In this document: piece after piece, positions 24,151-33,679 of the stretch
Numbering within the stretch: position 1 is the stretch's first letter
Layout: the number at the start of each line of letters is the position of its first letter
Origin: Alphaproteobacteria bacterium
GTDB taxonomy: Bacteria > Pseudomonadota > Alphaproteobacteria > Puniceispirillales > Puniceispirillaceae
NCBI GenBank assembly: GCA_009920665.1
Contig: RFZL01000018.1
Location: forward strand, 1 to 41,010
Reading direction: 5' to 3'
DNA length: 41,010 nucleotides
The notes under the pieces: generated by a model
Seen by the model: the letters and a program-made list of their open reading frames with translations, nothing else
Told to the model about the DNA's origin: nothing
The model's database searches: none
Program-made: the position numbers and the translations under genes

Positions 24151-24329
24151 AGATGGCCATGGAAAAACTGGCTTTTGCGAAACGGCAGCCCGGGAAGATC
24201 TGGCCGGGACCAAAGAAAGGGCCGGGAGACCAAAGAAAGGAATGTGATTGAGGTAGGGGCGTCGCGGAGCCTTTGGCGACGTTGCAACATTTTCGTACCG
24301 CGAAGGCGATAGAGAGCAGGGAGGACAAA

Positions 24330-24557
24330 ATGTCTAAACTCTTGACCATTGTCGGCGCGCAGATCGCCGGCTTTGCTGCGGGCGCAATCATGATGACCAG
24401 TGCCATGGCGGCAACAACCTTGAAGATCCAGCTGGCTGTGCCGCTGAGTGCGGATGAAGCTGTCATGGTCAACAGCTTCGCCAGCGATGTCGAGGCCCTT
24501 ACCGAAGGCGAGGTGAAGTTTGAACTGCTGCCGGCGGGCGCCGTTGTCGGTGTCGGC
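24330..24557 (+). pseudogene. TRAP binding protein (DctP) N-terminal remnant
   Basis: From an ATG with a strong GGGAGGA ribosome site, the frame encodes about 72 recognisable residues. A signal peptide ends MTSAMAAT, followed by TLKIQLAVPLSADEAVMVN and a segment ending LLPAGAVVGV, typical of the start of TRAP solute-binding proteins of the mannitol/chloroaromatic group (about 360 residues when intact). Similarity stops at about 24550, and the following bases encode the end of a DctM permease in another frame. The rest of dctP, all of dctQ and most of dctM are therefore missing. Confidence 0.82.
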
Positions 24558-24711
24558 CTATTTCCTGAAGGGCGTCGTGCCGGACTGGGATCTGAAGGAT
24601 ATCTATCTTGGAATGATGCAGTTCATGGTCATCCAGCTGATCGGATTGACCCTTATCTTCATCTTCCCGCAGCTGGTGCTGTGGCTTCCCGCAATGATCT
24701 ATGGAGATTGA
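24549..24711 (+). pseudogene. TRAP large permease (DctM) C-terminal remnant
   Basis: From about 24553 a frame shifted by +1 relative to the DctP start encodes SAYFLKGVVPDW, GMMQFMVIQLIGLTLIF and VLWLPAMIYGD to a stop at 24709-24711. This is the last cytoplasmic loop and membrane helix of a DctM permease (normally over 430 residues). It has no start or ribosome site of its own. The join with the DctP remnant lies in GTCGGTGTCGG (24546-24556), a short repeat that could have guided the deletion. Confidence 0.8.
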
Positions 24712-24757
24712 GCCGGTCATGACCCGCAAGCTGCCCGAGGAACGGTCCGGCATAGCC

Positions 24758-24833: not shown

Positions 24834-25388
24834 TCAGGCGCTGACGGCCTTCATGAAGCGATCACGAATGACAACCGGGTCCATTGTGATCACCGGCATC
24901 TTCGCGTTGCCGCTCTCACATTTGCAGACAATGATTGTCATCTCGCCGGAGTCCAGCGCCTCCTGAAGCACCCGTCCTGTATCTTCAGCGGCACATTCCA
25001 CCACAGTCTCGCAACCACAGGCTTCTGCCACTTTGGCAAGCGAGGTCTTGCGTCCGGCATAGGTCGGCTGATCGCCGGTCGAGCCGTAGGAGCCATTATC
25101 GATAATCAGCAGGATGAAGTTGCCAGCCGGGTTGTTCGCGATGGTTGGCAGTGTTCCCAGATTGGTCAGAACCGATCCGTCACCATCAATCGAAATGACC
25201 GGTTTTGGCTGCGAGAGCGCAAGTCCCAATCCAATTGAAGACGCCAGCCCCATGGTGCCAAGCATATAGAAATTGCTTGGCTGGTCATCGATGGCATGGA
25301 GTTCCTGGCTGGGAATGCCGATGTTGCAAACCACCAGCTGATCGCGAAGGATAGGCGCGATTTCCTTCAGTATCTCGGATCGAATCAT
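24834..25388 (-). CDS. comE: Sulfopyruvate decarboxylase beta subunit (ComE-like)
   Basis: A 184-residue thiamine-diphosphate-binding subunit. The TPP motif appears as ISIDGDGSVLTNLGTLPTIA followed by LIIDNGSYGSTGDQ, the GDG...N pattern that holds the diphosphate through Mg. With the alpha subunit it decarboxylates 3-sulfopyruvate to sulfoacetaldehyde in the cytoplasm. A GGGAGGA site precedes the ATG at 25388, which lies one base after the comD stop, so that start is preferred over the ATG at 25415 inside comD. It is the last gene of the sulfonate operon. A phosphonopyruvate decarboxylase is the main alternative, but that enzyme is usually one fused chain. Confidence 0.82.
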   Translation of the reverse strand: MIRSEILKEIAPILRDQLVVCNIGIPSQELHAIDDQPSNFYMLGTMGLASSIGLGLALSQPKPVISIDGDGSVLTNLGTLPTIANNPAGNFILLIIDNGSYGSTGDQPTYAGRKTSLAKVAEACGCETVVECAAEDTGRVLQEALDSGEMTIIVCKCESGNAKMPVITMDPVVIRDRFMKAVSA

Positions 25389-25389
25389 C

Positions 25390-25893
25390 TCAATATCCTC
25401 CCCAGAAGGATGCATCTGTCAGAATGGCAACCGGTTTGTTGCACATGAATGTGTATTTGATGATCTTGTCCAACTCCTCAACATCATCCCGGTGATGAAA
25501 GTGATAGGTCGGGATGTGAAGCTGCGCCAGCAAGGCCTTTGTGTGGACAGCCATCTCGACCTGACACGCAACAGGCTCGCCAAGTTCACCGCGATAGGAA
25601 ATCAGCATCGGCAGCGGCATCCGGTAATATTGTGTGAGCGTCGCCAGGGTGTTGATTGTCACGCCGATGGCTGTGTTCTGCATGATGATCGCGGGACGCT
25701 TGCCCCCCATGAACGCGCCGGCGCACAAACCCATACCCTCATCTTCCTTGTTGGACGGGATATGATGGATTTCCTCGCGCGCATCAATTTCGTCAATGAC
25801 CCCGGCCAATTGTTTGCACGGCACTGTTGTAACGAAGGATACATCATTCGCGACAAAGTCATCGACGATCCTCTTGTTGATATCCTCTTGCAT
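25390..25893 (-). CDS. comD: Sulfopyruvate decarboxylase alpha subunit (ComD-like)
   Basis: A 167-residue protein forming the pyrimidine-binding half of a split TPP enzyme. Near residue 43 is HIPSNKEDEGMGLCAGAFMG, holding the Glu that activates the cofactor. IMQNTAIGVTINTLATLTQY and PMLISYRGELGEP follow, typical of ComD and related phosphonopyruvate decarboxylases. The ATG at 25893 has a GAGAGA site; the frame extends upstream only to a TTG. It follows the alcohol dehydrogenase gene by 81 bases and precedes comE by one base. Its partnership with an HpsN-like enzyme supports sulfopyruvate as substrate. Confidence 0.82.
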   Translation of the reverse strand: MQEDINKRIVDDFVANDVSFVTTVPCKQLAGVIDEIDAREEIHHIPSNKEDEGMGLCAGAFMGGKRPAIIMQNTAIGVTINTLATLTQYYRMPLPMLISYRGELGEPVACQVEMAVHTKALLAQLHIPTYHFHHRDDVEELDKIIKYTFMCNKPVAILTDASFWGGY

Positions 25894-25974
25894 GTGTCTC
25901 TCTGTAACCTTTTCCGTGAGATGAAAACCGGAGTTCAATAGTCTGTGAATACTACCGCCAACCGGCGCTGGAGC

Positions 25975-26973
25975 CTATGGGGCCAGAATGATTTTTGGTG
26001 ATGCCACCCGATGGGCCCGGAGATCGGAAAAAGCTGCCGCACCATCCTTGAGGTCGCGCATTTCCATCCAGTCCAAGCTGCCGAGATCACCATTGAAGAT
26101 CGCCGCGGCGGTATTGCGGAAATCTTCGGATGTGTAGGTATAGGTGCCCATAAAGGTGATTTCCTGCAATGTCAGGCGCCGTGAATCGATGCCGCCACTT
26201 GCTTCCCCAAGGCCGATATGAACAATCACGCCGCCCGGGCGGGCATGTTTGCAGGCCATTGCGCGGCTCGCGGCATAACCGACGGCATCGACAACGATGT
26301 TGAACTGGCTGTCTGACTCCAGCCTGTCCGGTTCGATGGCCCGGTGCCCGCCTGCCTGTCCGATGCCTGCCTGTCCGATGATTGCGCGGCGATCGGCATT
26401 CGGTTCGAGGATTACAATGTCCTCCACTCCGAAATGGGCAAGACTGAGGGCGCTGCCAAGCCCGATGGCGCCGCCGCCAATCACCAGCGCCGAGGTGCCA
26501 CGCGGTGACACAAGGTTGATCGCAAGGCGTGAGGCATGCCATCCGCATGCAAGTGGTTCGGCGAGGGCTGCCTTTTCGAGCGGCACATGATCGGGAACGG
26601 TGATGACATTGACCTCCGGCATGGACAGCCATTGGGCAAAGGCGCCCTCACGGGGCGGCATGGAAATGATCTGGCGGCTGGCGCAAAGATTGTCGCGACC
26701 GGCGACACAGTCGGCGCAGGTCCCACATGTGACCAGCGGATTGACAGTCACACGCTCGCCGTCACGTGAGCCGCCGGAAATGGTGCCTGCCGCTTCATGC
26801 CCCAGAATAAGTGGTGCCGGCCGGCGCTCGTCATGTCCAAGATAGGCGTGCATATCCGACCCGCAGATGCCGCATGCATTGACGCGGATCAGGACCTCGC
26901 CATCCTGTAAGACCGGATCCGGCGCATCCCGAAACCCCATACTTTCGGGACCATCATAGATAAGAGCTTTCAT
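25975..26973 (-). CDS. Zinc-dependent alcohol dehydrogenase (MDR family)
   Basis: A 332-residue medium-chain dehydrogenase. Catalytic zinc ligands are visible in NACGICGSD (Cys37) and LGHEAAG (His59-Glu60), and the structural zinc lobe has Cys83, Cys86, Cys89 and Cys97. The NAD(P)-binding motif is VIGGGAIGLG. A 15-bp tandem duplication (26350-26379) repeats the pentapeptide IGQAG in the Rossmann domain. In the DHPS pathway, stereospecific DHPS-2-dehydrogenases (HpsO, HpsP) interconvert the two enantiomers, and this protein is a candidate for one of them or for oxidation of sulfolactate to sulfopyruvate. It overlaps the SDR gene by four bases (ATGA). Confidence 0.85.
   Translation of the reverse strand: MKALIYDGPESMGFRDAPDPVLQDGEVLIRVNACGICGSDMHAYLGHDERRPAPLILGHEAAGTISGGSRDGERVTVNPLVTCGTCADCVAGRDNLCASRQIISMPPREGAFAQWLSMPEVNVITVPDHVPLEKAALAEPLACGWHASRLAINLVSPRGTSALVIGGGAIGLGSALSLAHFGVEDIVILEPNADRRAIIGQAGIGQAGGHRAIEPDRLESDSQFNIVVDAVGYAASRAMACKHARPGGVIVHIGLGEASGGIDSRRLTLQEITFMGTYTYTSEDFRNTAAAIFNGDLGSLDWMEMRDLKDGAAAFSDLRAHRVASPKIILAP
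26350..26379. repeat. 15-bp tandem duplication inside the alcohol dehydrogenase gene
   Basis: GCCTGCCTGTCCGAT occurs at 26350-26364 and again at 26365-26379. On the coding strand it doubles Ile-Gly-Gln-Ala-Gly. It preserves the frame and falls after the Rossmann glycine motif, in a region where a surface loop is likely. Confidence 0.9.
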
Positions 26974-27731
26974 TTTGCCATGAATCCTCCGTCAACCATC
27001 AGCACCTGGCCAGTCACATAGCTGGAGGCATCGGAACACAGAAACAGAAGTGGCCCGTCCAGATCCCCCAGCTCGCCGTTTCTGTTCATACAGGTCTGCG
27101 CGGCGTTGCGTGCCGCCCGTTCGCCATCGGCGAACACCGGGGCCGTAAGTTCGGTGGGAAAGAATCCGGGGCCAATGGCGTTGGCGGTAATGCCGTGCCG
27201 TGACCAGGCCTCGGCCATGGCGCGGGTAAGCTGGGCGATGGCACCCTTGCTGGCGCCATAGGCAATGCCGCCGGGGAAGGCGCGAAATGTCTGTAGTGAG
27301 GCAAAATTCACAATTCGGCCCCACCCTCTGGCCTGCATTTGTGGCACCAGTGCCTGACTGAGAAAGAAGGGTGCCGATAAGTTCAGGGCAATGGTGGCGT
27401 CCCACCCTTCGTGTGTCACGTCATCGGCTGTCTGACGCAAATTGACCCCGGCAGCGTGGACAATGATGTCTGGCGCGCCAAAAGGAGCGCTGATGGACGC
27501 TTTCAGCCTGTCCAGATTGTCCCGGTCAGCAACATCCGCAACAACAAACGCTGCGTTCTCGCCGCTTGTGGCCTGCCATTGCGCCAGGCGTGACTCGCGC
27601 CGCGCTACGCCGACAACCTGCGCGCCAGCCGCCAGCAATGTCTCTGCGGCCCGCAATCCAAGGCCGGAACTGGCACCGGTGACGCATGCAATCTTGCCAG
27701 TCAGGTCAAAGAGGCTGATGGGATCAGTCAT
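26970..27731 (-). CDS. Short-chain dehydrogenase/reductase of the sulfonate operon
   Basis: A 253-residue classical SDR. TGASSGLG (residues 18-25) binds NAD(P), the NFAS region holds catalytic Ser145, and YGASK gives Tyr158 and Lys162. The end, SSYVTGQVLMVDGGFMAK, is typical of the family. The ATG at 27731 lies inside the stop region of the HpsN-like gene (8-base overlap) and ends in a 4-base overlap with the alcohol dehydrogenase, so the three are translated together. It probably oxidises or reduces a hydroxyl of a C3 sulfonate, as HpsO/HpsP do for DHPS, but the exact substrate cannot be read. Confidence 0.86.
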   Translation of the reverse strand: MTDPISLFDLTGKIACVTGASSGLGLRAAETLLAAGAQVVGVARRESRLAQWQATSGENAAFVVADVADRDNLDRLKASISAPFGAPDIIVHAAGVNLRQTADDVTHEGWDATIALNLSAPFFLSQALVPQMQARGWGRIVNFASLQTFRAFPGGIAYGASKGAIAQLTRAMAEAWSRHGITANAIGPGFFPTELTAPVFADGERAARNAAQTCMNRNGELGDLDGPLLFLCSDASSYVTGQVLMVDGGFMAK

Positions 27732-29031
27732 TTGCGGACAGATCAAAGGTTTCATCCGGAAAATATTTCGCCAGCCTGACATCGGCTGCACGGGCGTGGC
27801 CTTCCATACCTTCGAGACGTGAAATGCGCGCTGTCGCTTCGGCGATCTGTTTCGCGCCGTCACGTGTGGATTTCTGCCAGGTCACGATTTTCATGTATTT
27901 GTGGACCGACAATCCTCCGGTGTAGCGGGCCGCCCCGGATGTTGGCAGCACGTGGTTTGTGCCTGACGCCTTGTCACCATAGGAGACGGTTGTCTCTTCA
28001 CCGAGGAACAGCGAGCCATAACAGGTCAGGCGGCCAAGCCACCAATCGAGGTCCTCGGCCTGGACCGTCAAATGCTCCGGCGCGTATTCATCGGAAGTGG
28101 CCGCCATTTCCTCGCGGTCCTCGCAAAGGATCACCTCGGCATAGTCGCGCCATGCGGCTGCTGCATTGTCACGATTTGTCTCGGGAAGATCATCGATCAG
28201 GGCCGGCACCAGCTCCATGACCTTCTCCGCCAGCGGCTGGTCATCTGTCACCAGCCAGACCGGCGAGTTGTAGCCATGTTCGGCTTGCGATACCAGATCT
28301 GTGGCGACAATCAGGGGATCGGCCGTCGCATCGGCAAGGATCAGGCTGTCTGTCGGGCCGGCAATCATGTCGATACCGACGCGGCCGAAGAGAATCCGCT
28401 TTGCCTCGGCGACAAACTGGTTGCCGGGGCCGACAATGATATTCGCCCGCGGCAGGCCGAACAGCCCAAAGGTCATCGAGGCAACACCCTGGACGCCACC
28501 CATCGCCATGATTTTGTCGGCGCCGCAAATACGCGCCGCGAAAATGATCGCCGGGGCAATGCCGACGCCGGGCCGCGGCGGGGAACATGCGATGATGGAT
28601 TCGCAGCCGGCCACCTTGGCCGTGGTGACGGTCATCACCGCGCTGGCGATATGGCTGTAACGGCCGCCCGGGATATAACAGCCGGCGGCGTTCACCGGAA
28701 TGGCACGCTGGCCAGCCACAAGACCGGGCACGATTTCATACTCGAAATCGGCGATTGTTTTCTTCTGCTGCTCGGCAAATCGGCGGACATTGTCGTGCGC
28801 AAAGCGGATGTCGTCCTTCAATTTCTCGGGGACCAGATCACACGCAGCGTCGATTTCCTCGGGCGTCAGGATGATGTTGCCATCATATTTGTCGAATCTT
28901 GCCGCATATTCCAGCGCCACAGCGTCGCCACCAGCTTCGATATCGGCAAGAATTTTCTGAACAGTCGCCGTGACATCCGATGCGTCGGTTGTGGATGTGC
29001 GATGCGACTCTTTCAGATATGTGCGTGTCAT
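27724..29031 (-). CDS. hpsN: Sulfopropanediol 3-dehydrogenase (HpsN-like, histidinol dehydrogenase family)
   Basis: A 435-residue member of the histidinol dehydrogenase family, which oxidises an alcohol in two NAD+-dependent steps to a carboxylate. The gene is not with his genes, and the sequence strongly resembles HpsN, which converts (R)-DHPS to (R)-sulfolactate: AGCYIPGGRYSHIASAVMTV, FGRVGIDMIAGPTDSLI and GSLFLGEETTVSYGDKASGT. Zinc and catalytic residues appear in QAEHGYNSP, DEYAPEHL and GTNHVLPT. It follows the TRAP permease by 12 bases and overlaps the SDR gene. The nearby sulfopyruvate decarboxylase supports a C3 sulfonate substrate rather than histidinol. Confidence 0.88.
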   Translation of the reverse strand: MTRTYLKESHRTSTTDASDVTATVQKILADIEAGGDAVALEYAARFDKYDGNIILTPEEIDAACDLVPEKLKDDIRFAHDNVRRFAEQQKKTIADFEYEIVPGLVAGQRAIPVNAAGCYIPGGRYSHIASAVMTVTTAKVAGCESIIACSPPRPGVGIAPAIIFAARICGADKIMAMGGVQGVASMTFGLFGLPRANIIVGPGNQFVAEAKRILFGRVGIDMIAGPTDSLILADATADPLIVATDLVSQAEHGYNSPVWLVTDDQPLAEKVMELVPALIDDLPETNRDNAAAAWRDYAEVILCEDREEMAATSDEYAPEHLTVQAEDLDWWLGRLTCYGSLFLGEETTVSYGDKASGTNHVLPTSGAARYTGGLSVHKYMKIVTWQKSTRDGAKQIAEATARISRLEGMEGHARAADVRLAKYFPDETFDLSAND

Positions 29032-29043
29032 TGTCTGGAAACC

Positions 29044-30372
29044 CTATCGGTAAATTTCAGGCAGCAGGCTTGTCGAGATTGCCGGTACGAACGCGATCAG
29101 CAACACAACGACAAGCATGCAAAGAACGAATGGTACCGCGCGCGCGGCGATTTTCAGGATCGACTCGCCGGTAATGCCCGAAACCACAAACAGGTTCAGC
29201 CCCAATGGTGGTGTGATAAATCCAACACCAAGAGCCGTGATCATCATAACGCAAAACTGGATTTCATTCATGCCGATATTATCGGCAAGCGGCTTGAGAA
29301 TTGGCGCGAGAATGACGATGTTCGGCGTCGTTTCCATGACGCATCCAGCCGCGATCAGAATGCCGATCATCAACAGGATCAGCAGATACGGGTCATCTGT
29401 AAGCGATGTTGCGGCGCCGACAAAACCCTGTGGCACGCCCATGATGGCAAGTGCCTGTGCCAGCGGCAGCGAGAACGCGATAATCGGAAGGATGACGCCG
29501 TTCACCTTGGCCGAACTGACCAGCATTGCCGGAAAATCGGACAATTTCAGTGTTCCCAGGATGAAGCCGATGATGATGGTCACGATCACCGCTGTCGCGC
29601 CGGCCTCGGTAGGGGTCAGCCGTCCGGAAAAGATGCCGTAGAAGATGATTCCCGGAACGATGAAGGCGTACCATCCCGACTTCACCGAAGTGGCAAGTCT
29701 GTCAAACCATTCGGAAAAGGTGATCAGGCCGCCATGCTCATAGGCGTGAAGGCGGTTCATGATGATGTTCGTCACCAGGATCGCTGTCAGGATCGCAAGC
29801 CCCGGAATGACAGCTGCCAGAAACAGCGTCGACGCCGATATGCCAAGCACAAGGCCGATGACGATATAGGCAATCGATGGCGGGATCAGGATGCCGGTAC
29901 AGGCGCCCGCCGCAACCAGTGCGCAGGCATATGGGCGTGAATACCCTGACTCGACAAGTCTTGCGATTGTCATCCGCCCGACCGCAGCGGCCCCGGCCGC
30001 GTCAGAGCCTGAAATGGCGGAGAACATGCCGCACACCAGAACGGTTGCCGACCCGAAACCACCTTTGGCCCAACAGGTCAGTGCCTCCGCAACATCAAGG
30101 AATTTGCGTGACAGACCGGCGCGGACCAGAACATCGCCTGTCAGAATGAAAAGTGGCACGGCCGTCAGGGCGAAGGCATCAATGCCGTCGAACAGACTTT
30201 CGCCAACGAGGCTGAGCGGCAAGTCGCCGGACATCAGCAACATGGTGATCGCCGCTGCGCCAATGGCCGCCCAGACGGGAATCGCCAGCGCGATCAGGCC
30301 AACAAACAGGATGACTGGAAGATAGAAGTCCCAGCCAAGCTCCACTGTCTGATTAAGTGTGTTCCACAGCAT
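29044..30372 (-). CDS. dctM: TRAP transporter large permease (DctM)
   Basis: A 442-residue membrane protein with about a dozen hydrophobic segments. Family features include AIPVWAAIGAAA near the start, FSAISGSDAAGAAAVGRMTI in the first repeat, GRLTPTEAGATAVIVT in the middle and ITPPLGLNLFVVSG near the end. It couples sodium entry to solute uptake delivered by the binding protein. It lies 11 bases after dctQ and 12 bases before the HpsN-like gene, within one operon, so the cargo is probably the sulfonate degraded by the downstream enzymes. No clear ribosome site precedes its ATG, consistent with translational coupling. Confidence 0.92.
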   Translation of the reverse strand: MLWNTLNQTVELGWDFYLPVILFVGLIALAIPVWAAIGAAAITMLLMSGDLPLSLVGESLFDGIDAFALTAVPLFILTGDVLVRAGLSRKFLDVAEALTCWAKGGFGSATVLVCGMFSAISGSDAAGAAAVGRMTIARLVESGYSRPYACALVAAGACTGILIPPSIAYIVIGLVLGISASTLFLAAVIPGLAILTAILVTNIIMNRLHAYEHGGLITFSEWFDRLATSVKSGWYAFIVPGIIFYGIFSGRLTPTEAGATAVIVTIIIGFILGTLKLSDFPAMLVSSAKVNGVILPIIAFSLPLAQALAIMGVPQGFVGAATSLTDDPYLLILLMIGILIAAGCVMETTPNIVILAPILKPLADNIGMNEIQFCVMMITALGVGFITPPLGLNLFVVSGITGESILKIAARAVPFVLCMLVVVLLIAFVPAISTSLLPEIYR

Positions 30373-30383
30373 CGCCGGGTTGC

Positions 30384-30896
30384 TCAGTCAAAAAGTTTGT
30401 CGCCTTCATAAACGGGCGTGCCGTTGCGAAGGCTGTTGATGTCGTTGCGAAGCGACTGCAGGAGACGCCAGATCATAAGGGCAAAACCGATCGGCACGGC
30501 CATCAGAAACCACACCATGGACACCCTCAGCCCATGACTGACCGATCCGAATTTGGCTGAAACCAGAACGGTCTCGAATGACCAGTACAGGGCGATGACA
30601 GCCACGCCCATCATCATCAGATCACCAAGGATGTATGTCAGCGCCTTGCCGCGCGGTCCGAGGTAATTCAACAACACGTCAATCCGGATATGCGCGCGCT
30701 CCCTGACGGCGGCGGCAGCACCGATCCAGGCGAGATAGATAAAGGAATAGCGGACGATTTCCTCACCCCATATCGAGGAGTAGGCGAAGACCTCGCGCCG
30801 CAATACTTCTACCGCCATGGTTGCGACAAGCATGACGTAGAAGATCAACAGCAACCAGCGTTCCGCATTCCGGTCTATGAGGCGCAGCGCGTTCAT
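30384..30896 (-). CDS. dctQ: TRAP transporter small permease (DctQ)
   Basis: A 170-residue protein with four hydrophobic helices. Family marks are RREVFAYSSIWGEEIVRYSF with the conserved WGEE-like pattern, and RERAHIRIDVLL. It forms the membrane complex with DctM. The ATG at 30896 has an AAGGGA ribosome site, while an earlier ATG at 30938 lacks one. It is separated from dctP by 183 bases that contain a strong stem-loop. Confidence 0.9.
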   Translation of the reverse strand: MNALRLIDRNAERWLLLIFYVMLVATMAVEVLRREVFAYSSIWGEEIVRYSFIYLAWIGAAAAVRERAHIRIDVLLNYLGPRGKALTYILGDLMMMGVAVIALYWSFETVLVSAKFGSVSHGLRVSMVWFLMAVPIGFALMIWRLLQSLRNDINSLRNGTPVYEGDKLFD

Positions 30897-31027
30897 GGAT
30901 ATGTCCCTTTGCCGGTGCCTTGCCGCCTGTCTGGCCATGTTTGTGTCGAGTGGCGCTGGACGAGGATATCTGCCATGCCGGTTCGCATCAGGTGATCAAC
31001 CCGGTTTGGCAAAAGCTGCAAACGAAT

Positions 31028-31058
31028 TGGTGGGCACAAAATGACCCTGTGCCCACCA
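31028..31058 (-). promoter_or_regulatory. Intercistronic stem-loop after dctP
   Basis: TGGTGGGCACA (31028-31038) and TGTGCCCACCA (31048-31058) form a perfect 11-bp stem with a nine-base loop. It lies 22 bases after the dctP stop in transcription direction, without a T run. It probably protects the dctP message or stops part of the transcripts, giving more binding protein than permease. Confidence 0.65.
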
Positions 31059-31079
31059 TAGCTGTGCTCACTGCAGGTC

Positions 31080-32228
31080 CTAGGCGTCGTGTACGTAGAA
31101 TCTGCCCTGGGTGTTTGCGGCGTCTTCCAGTTTCCCAAAATTGGCCATTGAACCCGCAAGCTCCTTCTTGAAGCTGTCCCACTCGGAGCGCTGATAGCCG
31201 CCGGCAGCTTTCCACTCGGCAAGTTGATCATCGCTAAGAGAGTGGAATTGAACGCCTGACTTTGCAAGCTCGGACATCGCGTAGCCACGCGCGGCCGGCA
31301 CTTTTGCAAGGTTCATGTGGCCGGTCATCTCAGACCCCCACATGACGCCTTCCTGCACATCCGATGGCAGGCTGTTGAACCATTCAAGGTTACAGGAATA
31401 AACCTGGCTGTCCGGAACCGCCTGCGTGAATGTGACATGGCTCAGGATATCCTTGAAGCCGAACACATAGAGTGCGCCAACCGACGGATCCAGAGCGTCA
31501 GCAACGCCCTGCTTGATGGCGGAAGGTGTTTCACCCCAGGCCACAGGTGTCGGGTTGGCGCCAACCATCCGGTAATATTGCTGAAGCATCTTGGATCCGG
31601 GGACACGGAACTTCACACCGGCCAGATCGCCGGGCGTGATGACGGCGCCGGCACCGCCCTTGCGAACCGCCACAACGCGCGGGTCGATATTGACGTAGAA
31701 CAGCGCCTTGAAGCCGTTCTGCTCGACCTTCGGATGGACTTCCTTGTTCCAGAAATCGGAGTGCACCAGATTTGTGAAGCGCTGGTTCGAGCCACACAGA
31801 TAGGGCATGTTGATCAGATCGACCGTGGAAGCGAACGGCGCGAAATTTGACAGCGAATGCTGTGCAGCCTGGATGGTACCTGACTGGACCTTCTGCACGA
31901 GTGCGCCGCCGGCGCCAAGCTGGCCTCCGGGTGCAAGCTTCACATATACCTTGCCATTCGTAGCGTTCTGGATGTTTTCCTTGAGGTCCAGCTGCAGGAT
32001 CGGATAGCTGCGCGAGGCGCCAAGCACATAGGCTGTGGCGACCGTCATCACATGATCGGCTGCCTTTTCGCGCTCACGCTCCTCTGCGGCTGTCTGCGCT
32101 ACGGCTTCTTTCGACCACAGCATGCCATTGGCTCCAACAACCAGCGCTGCCGTGAAGCTGCCGCCAGCGGCAAGCTTCAAGAAGTTGCGCCGTTCTACGG
32201 ATTTCAGTTCTTGTATATCGTCGTTCAA
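31080..32228 (-). CDS. dctP: TRAP transporter substrate-binding protein (DctP) with Tat signal
   Basis: A 382-residue periplasmic binding protein. The signal contains ERRNFLKLAAGGSF (twin Arg at residues 13-14), so export by Tat is likely, followed by a helix and a cut near residue 44 (AVAQT). The mature part shows PGDLAGVKFRVPGSKMLQQY, the family strand with the Arg that binds the carboxylate or sulfonate group, and GVADALDPSVGAL. The start codon is TTG at 32228: GGGAGGA lies seven bases before it and no suitable ATG exists before the signal. Its place at the head of the sulfonate operon suggests DHPS or sulfolactate as ligand. Confidence 0.9.
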   Translation of the reverse strand: MNDDIQELKSVERRNFLKLAAGGSFTAALVVGANGMLWSKEAVAQTAAEEREREKAADHVMTVATAYVLGASRSYPILQLDLKENIQNATNGKVYVKLAPGGQLGAGGALVQKVQSGTIQAAQHSLSNFAPFASTVDLINMPYLCGSNQRFTNLVHSDFWNKEVHPKVEQNGFKALFYVNIDPRVVAVRKGGAGAVITPGDLAGVKFRVPGSKMLQQYYRMVGANPTPVAWGETPSAIKQGVADALDPSVGALYVFGFKDILSHVTFTQAVPDSQVYSCNLEWFNSLPSDVQEGVMWGSEMTGHMNLAKVPAARGYAMSELAKSGVQFHSLSDDQLAEWKAAGGYQRSEWDSFKKELAGSMANFGKLEDAANTQGRFYVHDA

Positions 32229-32250
32229 TTTCTTTCCTCCCGAAACGAGC

Positions 32251-32436
32251 CTAATCAGGTTGTCTTTCCTTGCTTTCGGCTTCTTTTTTCAATATCGCGG
32301 CAACAAACAGGATTGCTGCCGTGAGCAAGACCAGCATTTCAGAGACATCGTTCAAAAAAGGCGTACGGGTCACCGACCCGATCACCACGTTTGATGCGAA
32401 GACCCCGAATGCCAACATGGACGCCACTAGCAGCAT
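32251..32436 (-). CDS. 61-residue two-helix membrane protein, first gene of the sulfonate operon
   Basis: A small protein of two hydrophobic helices (about residues 1-20 and 33-50) joined by GSVTRTPFLNDVSE, ending in a charged tail KKEAESKERQPD. AGGAGG lies six bases before the ATG at 32436, one of the best ribosome sites in the window; a longer frame from 32529 would cover the operators. It sits between the LacI-type operators and dctP. No family recognised. It may be an extra subunit of the TRAP transporter or a regulator of it, judged from position only. Confidence 0.72.
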   Translation of the reverse strand: MLLVASMLAFGVFASNVVIGSVTRTPFLNDVSEMLVLLTAAILFVAAILKKEAESKERQPD

Positions 32437-32520: not shown

Positions 32521-32653
32521 TTGCGACATAATTTCGGTTTGTGTGAGTTGCTATTGGCGAAACCGGTATTTTAGGTTTTGATTGAAGTGATCCCGAATTG
32601 TGGATCCCCTTCGCACGGCCGGGTGAAACGCTGTGGGCCAGAGCAGGACGCGG

Positions 32654-33679
32654 ATGACCATTCGTTCGGTACCGACATTGGATGACGTTGCAAAGCGGGC
32701 AGCTGTGTCAACCGCGACTGTATCGCGATGTCTGAATTCGCCGGAGCAGGTCAGCGAGGCGACCCGTAATCGTGTCAATGAGGCCGTGAATGCGCTTGGC
32801 TATACGCCGAATTTTGGCGCAAGAGTGATGGCGGCCAAGCGGACCAATACCATCGGGGCCATCATCCCGACGATGGAGAATGCCATTTTTGCCCGCGGGC
32901 TACAGGCGTTCCAGGATGAACTGCGAACAAGGGGCTATACGCTTCTGGTTGCCAGTTCATCCTACAAATCCGATGTCGAGGAGGAGCAGGTGCGGGCCTT
33001 GATCTCGCGGGGGGCTGACGGGTTGCTGCTTATCGGCCATGATCGCAGCGCGACGATCATGAACTATCTTGCCGCACGGAATGTGCCGGCGCTTGTGGCC
33101 TGGGCACATGATCCGGGTGCGGTTCTGCCGTCAATCGGCTTTGACAATTTTGAGGCGATGTGTGCCCTTGCCAGACAGGTCATGTCCCTCGGACATCAGA
33201 GAATAGGTCTGATCTCGGCGGCAACCGAAACAAATGACCGGGCACGGGCGCGTGTGCTGGCTGTGCGGCATGTCATGCAGGAGGCGGGTATTTCGCCGGA
33301 CAATCTCCATATCATTGAAACCGAATATGGGATTGAAACAGGGGCGACGGCATTTCAATCCCTGATCGATGCTGGCCATGATCCCAGTGTCGTCTTCTGT
33401 GGCAATGACGTGCTGGCTGTTGGCGCGATGAAGCAGGCGCAAAAGATGGGGATCAATGTGCCATCCGACATTTCGATCACCGGCTTTGATGACATTGAAA
33501 TTGCGCGTGTGGTCGTGCCCGAACTGTGTACGGTTCATGTGCCGCATCGAAAAATGGGCGCCAGGGCGGCCGGCATATTGGTTGACATGGTGGAAGGCCG
33601 ACCATTCCCTCATACCACGCAACTGGATGCCACTCTGGAAATTCGCGGGTCCCTGTCTTCGGCGTCCGCGGTACGGTAG
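32654..33679 (+). CDS. LacI-family transcriptional regulator of the sulfonate operon
   Basis: A 341-residue regulator. The N-terminal helix-turn-helix reads PTLDDVAKRAAVSTATVSRC, followed by the hinge helix region ending LGYTPNFGARVMA. The rest is a periplasmic-binding-protein-like sensor domain (TIGAIIPTMENAIFARGL near its start; FCGNDVLAVGAMKQA and ITGFDDIEIARVVVPEL later). It is divergent from the sulfonate operon, with two LacI-type operators between, so it most likely represses that operon, and perhaps itself, until a pathway intermediate binds. The ATG at 32654 is taken; a GTG at 32633 in the same frame is possible. Confidence 0.9.
   Translation: MTIRSVPTLDDVAKRAAVSTATVSRCLNSPEQVSEATRNRVNEAVNALGYTPNFGARVMAAKRTNTIGAIIPTMENAIFARGLQAFQDELRTRGYTLLVASSSYKSDVEEEQVRALISRGADGLLLIGHDRSATIMNYLAARNVPALVAWAHDPGAVLPSIGFDNFEAMCALARQVMSLGHQRIGLISAATETNDRARARVLAVRHVMQEAGISPDNLHIIETEYGIETGATAFQSLIDAGHDPSVVFCGNDVLAVGAMKQAQKMGINVPSDISITGFDDIEIARVVVPELCTVHVPHRKMGARAAGILVDMVEGRPFPHTTQLDATLEIRGSLSSASAVR

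Follow-up and report, generated by a model that had tools for sequence, protein, structure and literature searches.

What does the operon at positions 24834-32436 of contig RFZL01000018.1, from an alphaproteobacterium of the Puniceispirillaceae, degrade, and how does it lead from an HpsN-like dehydrogenase, which yields sulfolactate, to the decarboxylase ComDE, which uses sulfopyruvate? The whole stretch of 41,010 nucleotides that was analysed (the window) corresponds to contig C80 in a metagenome-assembled genome of 2.69 Mb in 214 contigs (99.15% complete; SAR116-like host). Judged from the genes, we consider it highly probable that the locus is an hps operon of the Xsc-pathway type, by which 2,3-dihydroxypropane-1-sulfonate (DHPS) is imported and oxidized. 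DHPS is a major marine algal currency of carbon and sulfur. A preliminary description of the locus had already named it as the possible substrate, and the matches of HpsN, HpsO and HpsP together with the ComDE equivalogs agree with that call.

The DHPS assignment is supported because DHPS enzymes are the best matches in the PDB for HpsN and HpsP and the second best for HpsO, with the relevant residues conserved. The product of hpsN (27724-29031, minus strand), a predicted R-DHPS 3-dehydrogenase with histidinol dehydrogenase fold, matches 8wwe, "(R)-DHPS dehydrogenase", with 754 bits, followed by CpHpsN (8v35, 545 bits) and by histidinol dehydrogenases at 232-261 bits. The histidine that distinguishes HpsN from HisD is His126 in CpHpsN, where Glu318, His319 and Asp352 are catalytic (PMC11382572). 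This residue is present in the window protein as His127, which also keeps Glu319, His320, Asp353, Lys354, Gln249, His252 and His412. The short-chain dehydrogenase/reductase (SDR) encoded by hpsO (26970-27731, minus strand; predicted R-DHPS dehydrogenase) matches 6le3, named gluconate 5-dehydrogenase, with 405 bits and 8wwf, "HpsO", with 398 bits; in an alignment to HpsO of R. pomeroyi SZCCDBG043 the equivalents of Ser145, Gln147, Tyr158 and Lys162 are all conserved. For the zinc-dependent medium-chain dehydrogenase/reductase (MDR) encoded by hpsP (25975-26973, minus strand; predicted S-DHPS dehydrogenase) 8wwd is the sole PDB match at 1e-30 (432 bits), and His59, Glu60 and Glu139 are conserved at identical positions. 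The residues checked in HpsO and HpsP are those tested in PMC11131964. Identities to the proteins of strain SZCCDBG043 are 82% for HpsN, 72% for HpsO and 64% for HpsP. A second HisD-family protein is encoded near an SDR gene on contig C156 of the same genome (L244:3564-4874); it is 46% identical to HpsN and carries Met at the place of the diagnostic His. Matches at 43-49% to HpsN occur in 41 of the 63 genomes of the order, Met having been examined in the C156 protein only.

Upstream of hpsN on the minus strand lie three genes for a tripartite ATP-independent periplasmic (TRAP) transporter, namely hpsM for the large permease DctM (29044-30372; TIGR00786, 305.9 bits, cut-off 268.45), hpsL for the small permease DctQ (30384-30896; PF04290, 107.4 bits) and hpsK for the substrate-binding protein DctP (31080-32228 with a TTG start; PF03480, 150.9 bits). 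Downstream of hpsP, and also on the minus strand, are comD for the alpha subunit (25390-25893; TIGR03845, 150.2 bits, cut-off 147.95; Pfam match slightly below threshold at 26.6 vs 26.8) and comE for the beta subunit of sulfopyruvate decarboxylase (24834-25415, with ATG at 25415 or 25388; TIGR03846, 238.3 bits, cut-off 221.5). The order on one strand is thus hpsK-hpsL-hpsM-hpsN-hpsO-hpsP-comD-comE, with overlaps of 4 bases between hpsP and hpsO and of 8 bases between hpsO and hpsN, and a spacing of 11-12 bases at hpsN/hpsM and hpsM/hpsL. All genes listed in the preliminary description are therefore present on the minus strand, and we infer that hpsK to comE form the single transcription unit that it had assumed. 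A LacI-family regulator gene, hpsR (32633-33679, plus strand; PF00356), is divergent and lies outside the range covered by the preliminary description; the R. pomeroyi hpsR is SPO0590 (PMC4334477). It is very improbable that the operon serves another polar C3 diol or hydroxyacid, for which the HpsN-like and ComDE-like enzymes would have drifted. The HisD family, SDR and MDR are broad enzyme groups, and SAR11 homologs are comparably active on DHPS and secondary substrates (PMC11131964), but the identities and conserved residues given above speak for DHPS, and the ComDE equivalogs and TRAP genes are retained alongside hpsNOP.

In the proposed route DHPS would be imported by HpsKLM, HpsN would convert R-DHPS to R-sulfolactate, and HpsO and HpsP would oxidize the R and S forms of DHPS, respectively, with sulfolactaldehyde as product according to PMC11131964. 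Sulfolactate would be oxidized to sulfopyruvate by an enzyme encoded outside the operon, decarboxylation of sulfopyruvate by ComDE would give sulfoacetaldehyde, and from this Xsc, whose gene lies on a different contig, would release acetyl phosphate and sulfite. HpsR would control the operon. Gene identities, gene order, catalytic residues and the presence of xsc are seen directly in the sequence; the substrates, co-transcription, induction, the sulfolactate step and the use of Xsc in this route are deduced.

To compare hps loci, the best 80 of 565 HpsN relatives from a scan seeded with the window HpsN were taken and their gene content was determined by tblastn in flanks of at most 10 kb, many loci ending at contig ends. 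Within these limits hpsO was present in 76 loci, hpsP in 74, hpsR in 71, each TRAP gene in 59, comD in 52, comE in 51, slcD in 49, suyB in 5 and xsc in none. All nine genes, including the lacI-type regulator gene, occur together in 36 of these loci, so the gene order is not a chance arrangement. Every comE (51/51) lies downstream of hpsN on the same strand, and the hpsR relative is divergent upstream of hpsN in all 71 loci that have it. The arrangement is standard in Rhodobacterales. In many loci a gene for a Usp protein, hpsQ, lies between hpsP and comD, and in 43 of the 51 comE loci slcD follows comE within 200 nt. From the other eight loci, L015 among them, slcD is absent; comDE without adjacent slcD is therefore a minority form in Rhodobacterales too. 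The slcD gene, named after R. pomeroyi SPO0598 (PMC4334477), encodes an FMN_dh protein and occupies the place of SPO0598 in L061. When the count was limited to the 59 loci that extend 3.5 kb or more past hpsP, 36 had comDE and slcD, eight comDE without slcD, six slcD alone, four suyB and five none of these.

The combination of hpsNOP, slcD, comDE and xsc is a published class, the Xsc pathway, to which 37 of 272 HpsN entries belong (PMC11382572, section 2.8), and hpsN and comDE are present in roseobacters of the RCA group (PMC10675870); HpsN in company with ComDE was thus already known. The variant route considered in the preliminary description is not supported; the only unusual point is the absence of slcD from the window operon.

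For the gap between sulfolactate and sulfopyruvate the preliminary description had offered two solutions, an oxidation by the SDR or the zinc alcohol dehydrogenase within the operon or a sulfolactate dehydrogenase encoded elsewhere. The first solution would suit an operon without slcD in a genome where no clear substitute was found. However, the two proteins match HpsO and HpsP, the published DHPS dehydrogenases, and their DHPS-binding residues are intact. HpsO acts on R-DHPS and HpsP on S-DHPS, both at C3 (PMC11131964), and both are termed DHPS-2-dehydrogenases in PMC11382572. Neither account gives them the step from sulfolactate to sulfopyruvate. HpsO and HpsP also occur in operons that have slcD (the 36 of 59 loci with comDE and slcD) or suyAB-like genes. 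A bridge by one of them is accordingly a far-fetched option, and the second solution stood: the sulfolactate dehydrogenase must lie elsewhere, because none was recognised in the operon.

As regards the fate of sulfoacetaldehyde, the preliminary description had seen no xsc or other desulfonating gene in the operon. Searches of the whole genome with the TPP_enzyme_C, Ldh_2 and GD_AH families and with a SlcD protein likewise found no desulfonating enzyme on the window contig, where comE was the sole match. The earlier suggestion that sulfoacetaldehyde is used elsewhere gained ground, as the genome encodes a full-length Xsc on contig C155 (941.6 bits, cut-off 676.4). Above this cut-off xsc was found in 37 of 63 sampled genomes of the order, the window genome counted, and in all four genomes with a window-type HpsN (at least 92% identity; G000, G001, G002, G005). 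Domains of the PTA_PTB family are encoded on C149, within a 758-aa open frame, and on C114. A suyB ortholog was not found in the genome, in which two GD_AH proteins reach 27% and 29% identity to a SuyB-like protein encoded after hpsNOP in G062. This reference is presumed to be SuyB from its family and its position beside hps genes, which agree with those of SuyAB; SuyB-like proteins of G067, G065 and five named hps loci are 78-95% identical to it. A SuyAB route in the window genome was rejected on these low identities. The genome content, which includes an xsc gene on a different contig but lacks a close SuyB, agrees with the published Xsc pathway.

Alternatively, sulfopyruvate or sulfoacetaldehyde could pass through cysteate to CuyA, or be excreted as another sulfonate such as isethionate, so that Xsc would have no part. 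The lack of a desulfonating enzyme in the operon and the position of xsc on a separate contig, beside a TauD-like gene, are in line with this, as is the fact that SAR116 is credited with genes for sulfoacetaldehyde and cysteate degradation (PMC11293860). The product of ComDE is, however, the substrate of the full-length, above-cut-off Xsc of this genome, and desulfonating genes are frequently apart from hpsNOP (PMC11382572, section 2.8). We regard another fate as unlikely, and the Xsc-type DHPS operon as the preferred reading.

Several observations nevertheless weigh against that reading. ComD clears its equivalog cut-off only narrowly, xsc may serve taurine given its TauD-like neighbour, and a cysteate branch via CuyA is a possible alternative. 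The search of the genome with roseobacter SlcD returned FMN_dh proteins at 40% and 34% identity and a third match that is weak and partial, and the Ldh_2 protein encoded on C149 has sulfolac_dhydr as its top NCBIfam model with 241 of the required 500 bits.

The search for slcD elsewhere in the genome thus gave 40% identity at best. In a tree with a long-branch warning, neither of the two full-length FMN_dh proteins belongs to the SlcD clade (47 rows), whose members are at least 61% identical to the same reference. Ldh_2 gave three matches in the genome (C149, C163 and the partial L011). The C149 protein is a weak candidate for ComC: PDB entries for malate/lactate dehydrogenases rank first and sulfolactate dehydrogenase third, its identity to three R. 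pomeroyi Ldh_2 proteins is 29-33%, and the neighbouring glutamine-synthetase-like and aldehyde dehydrogenase genes are uninformative on its role. The C163 protein (L010) also has sulfolac_dhydr as top NCBIfam model (175 of 500 bits); it was set aside as ComC, its best PDB match being a piperideine-carboxylate/ureidoglycolate-type enzyme (251 bits), ahead of sulfolactate dehydrogenase (142 bits). PF02826 has 11 matches in the genome, and none of the four strongest is named SlcC; one is a phosphoglycerate dehydrogenase above cut-off and three are glyoxylate/hydroxypyruvate-reductase-like below theirs, so that an SlcC may still be encoded in the genome. GlcD-type flavoenzymes (PF01565, six matches) were set aside as SlcD because slcD proved to encode an FMN_dh protein.

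The related genomes show a similar picture. In G001 and G005, as in the window, slcD does not adjoin comE, and the contig of G002 stops 455 bases beyond comE. Unlike G000, G002 has an FMN_dh protein 49% identical to SlcD, adjoining a thiamine pyrophosphate (TPP) enzyme. The SAR116 FMN_dh relatives (43-50% to SlcD in the 19 best rows) were rejected as slcD, since they lie outside the 47 Rhodobacterales SlcD rows, again with long-branch warnings. Five of them, 45-48% identical to SlcD, were viewed in context (L232-L236) and all lie beside a TPP enzyme gene; the one TPP partner that was typed is acetolactate-synthase/hydroxyacyl-CoA-lyase-like. These genes possibly encode a pair of hydroxyacid dehydrogenase and TPP enzyme. 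Tentatively, the Rhodobacterales-type DHPS operon could have arrived or survived in this SAR116 genus without slcD, with sulfolactate being oxidized by a recruited non-SlcD enzyme of the host in a patched pathway. The C149 Ldh_2-family protein and the lactate-dehydrogenase-like flavoenzymes on C171 are candidate recruits.

Other stretches carry parts of the pathway in different surroundings. In G032 (L237) hpsN and hpsP are followed by Fer4 iron-sulfur and DmsC-like genes, an aminotransferase gene, xsc and a PTA-family gene within ~15 kb, and a similar layout of hpsN, hpsP and xsc is seen in G037 (L238); both are possible sulfonate islands. Twelve SAR116 stretches (L146-L157) have comDE (comE 69-81%) but, as far as they were read, contain no DHPS-type hpsN, with a 48% HisD-family paralog accompanying comDE in L156. 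In these stretches ComDE may serve another source of sulfopyruvate.

Between hpsK and hpsL the minus strand can form a hairpin of 14 pairs with a loop of 3 (31028-31058). The 110 nt 3' of hpsK were also folded for 54 further loci, with a median z of -2.15 and 29 of the 54 below -2 (30 single-base shuffles each), and the hairpin perhaps raises the mRNA of the binding protein over that of the permeases. Scans for promoters (6 vs a mean of 4.2) and terminators (12 vs 8.0) gave numbers near chance. Beyond comE, the scar of a second TRAP operon was seen at 24273-24722 (plus strand), where the N-terminal part of a DctP and the C-terminal end of a DctM are joined in different reading frames. G001 has a DctP gene and DctQM pieces between comE and a gene for a glucose-methanol-choline (GMC) oxidoreductase (L140:9253-12763, minus strand).

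To trace the origin of the operon, a midpoint-rooted HpsN tree of 51 rows (48 different) was used. Window-type HpsN (seven rows, four different sequences) stands on the Rhodobacterales side and is separated by a 100/100 split from 21 SAR116 rows of the other type, to which G004, G007 and G011 of the same genus belong. The HpsN sequences of G005 and G002, also of the window's genus, are identical to those of L015 and L014, respectively; the tree does not resolve the placement of the window type among the Rhodobacterales rows. A second SAR116 group (G021, G064, G067, G073, G080) is also found on the Rhodobacterales side, near L019, L038 and L086, though not strongly supported there (94/92). As the window HpsN groups with Rhodobacterales rather than with the other SAR116 type, the simplest reading suggests a lateral transfer of the hps operon between Rhodobacterales and SAR116. 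Its direction would follow from the wider spread in Rhodobacterales, as seen in the window-seeded scan and the midpoint-rooted tree.

Roseobacteraceae and SAR11 are named as the primary DHPS degraders in PMC11131964. SAR116 as a host is not fully new, because PMC11293860, a review, credits the group with sulfonate degradation genes, and its sulfonates have been treated via ssuD and msmA (PMC12262181). The accessible text of PMC10675870, PMC4334477 and PMC12478193 does not treat DHPS use by SAR116, none of six sulfonate terms was found in PMC8547437, and a description of this operon in SAR116 was not found in a literature search that left out most subscription journals. The locus thus represents an established pathway in a group of hosts that had been credited with the use of sulfonates before. 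One of its steps lacks an assigned gene, and the absence of slcD points to a specific enzyme that can be sought. The two hps operon types of SAR116, one of them near Rhodobacterales, support SAR116 as a further user of DHPS and suggest a transfer of the pathway as one unit.

Among known systems, the order of regulator, TRAP transporter, hpsN, hpsO and hpsP is shared with the hpsR-hpsKLM-hpsNOPQ-slcD cluster of R. pomeroyi DSS-3 (SPO0590-0598, PMC4334477). That cluster has hpsQ (UspA) and slcD, and comDE is not listed for it in the accessible text, whereas in the window comDE is present and both hpsQ and slcD are absent. With the Xsc-type clusters of Jannaschia sp. CCS1 and Ruegeria sp. ANG-S4 (PMC11382572) the window shares hpsNOP, comDE and a genomic xsc. 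These clusters are described with slcD, whereas the nearest FMN_dh protein of the window genome is 40% identical to SlcD. The other hps clusters of the same genus, in G004, G007 and G011 (L142, L143 and L145), have hpsN, hpsO, hpsP and comDE beside a TRAP transporter as well; the L142 cluster is adjoined by a DctP gene (typed) and a GMC oxidoreductase gene, and L143 by a GMC gene. They differ from the window in the order hpsN-comDE-hpsO-hpsP, in a fused DctQM (typed in L142) and in an HpsN that is 59% identical and belongs to a separate clade.

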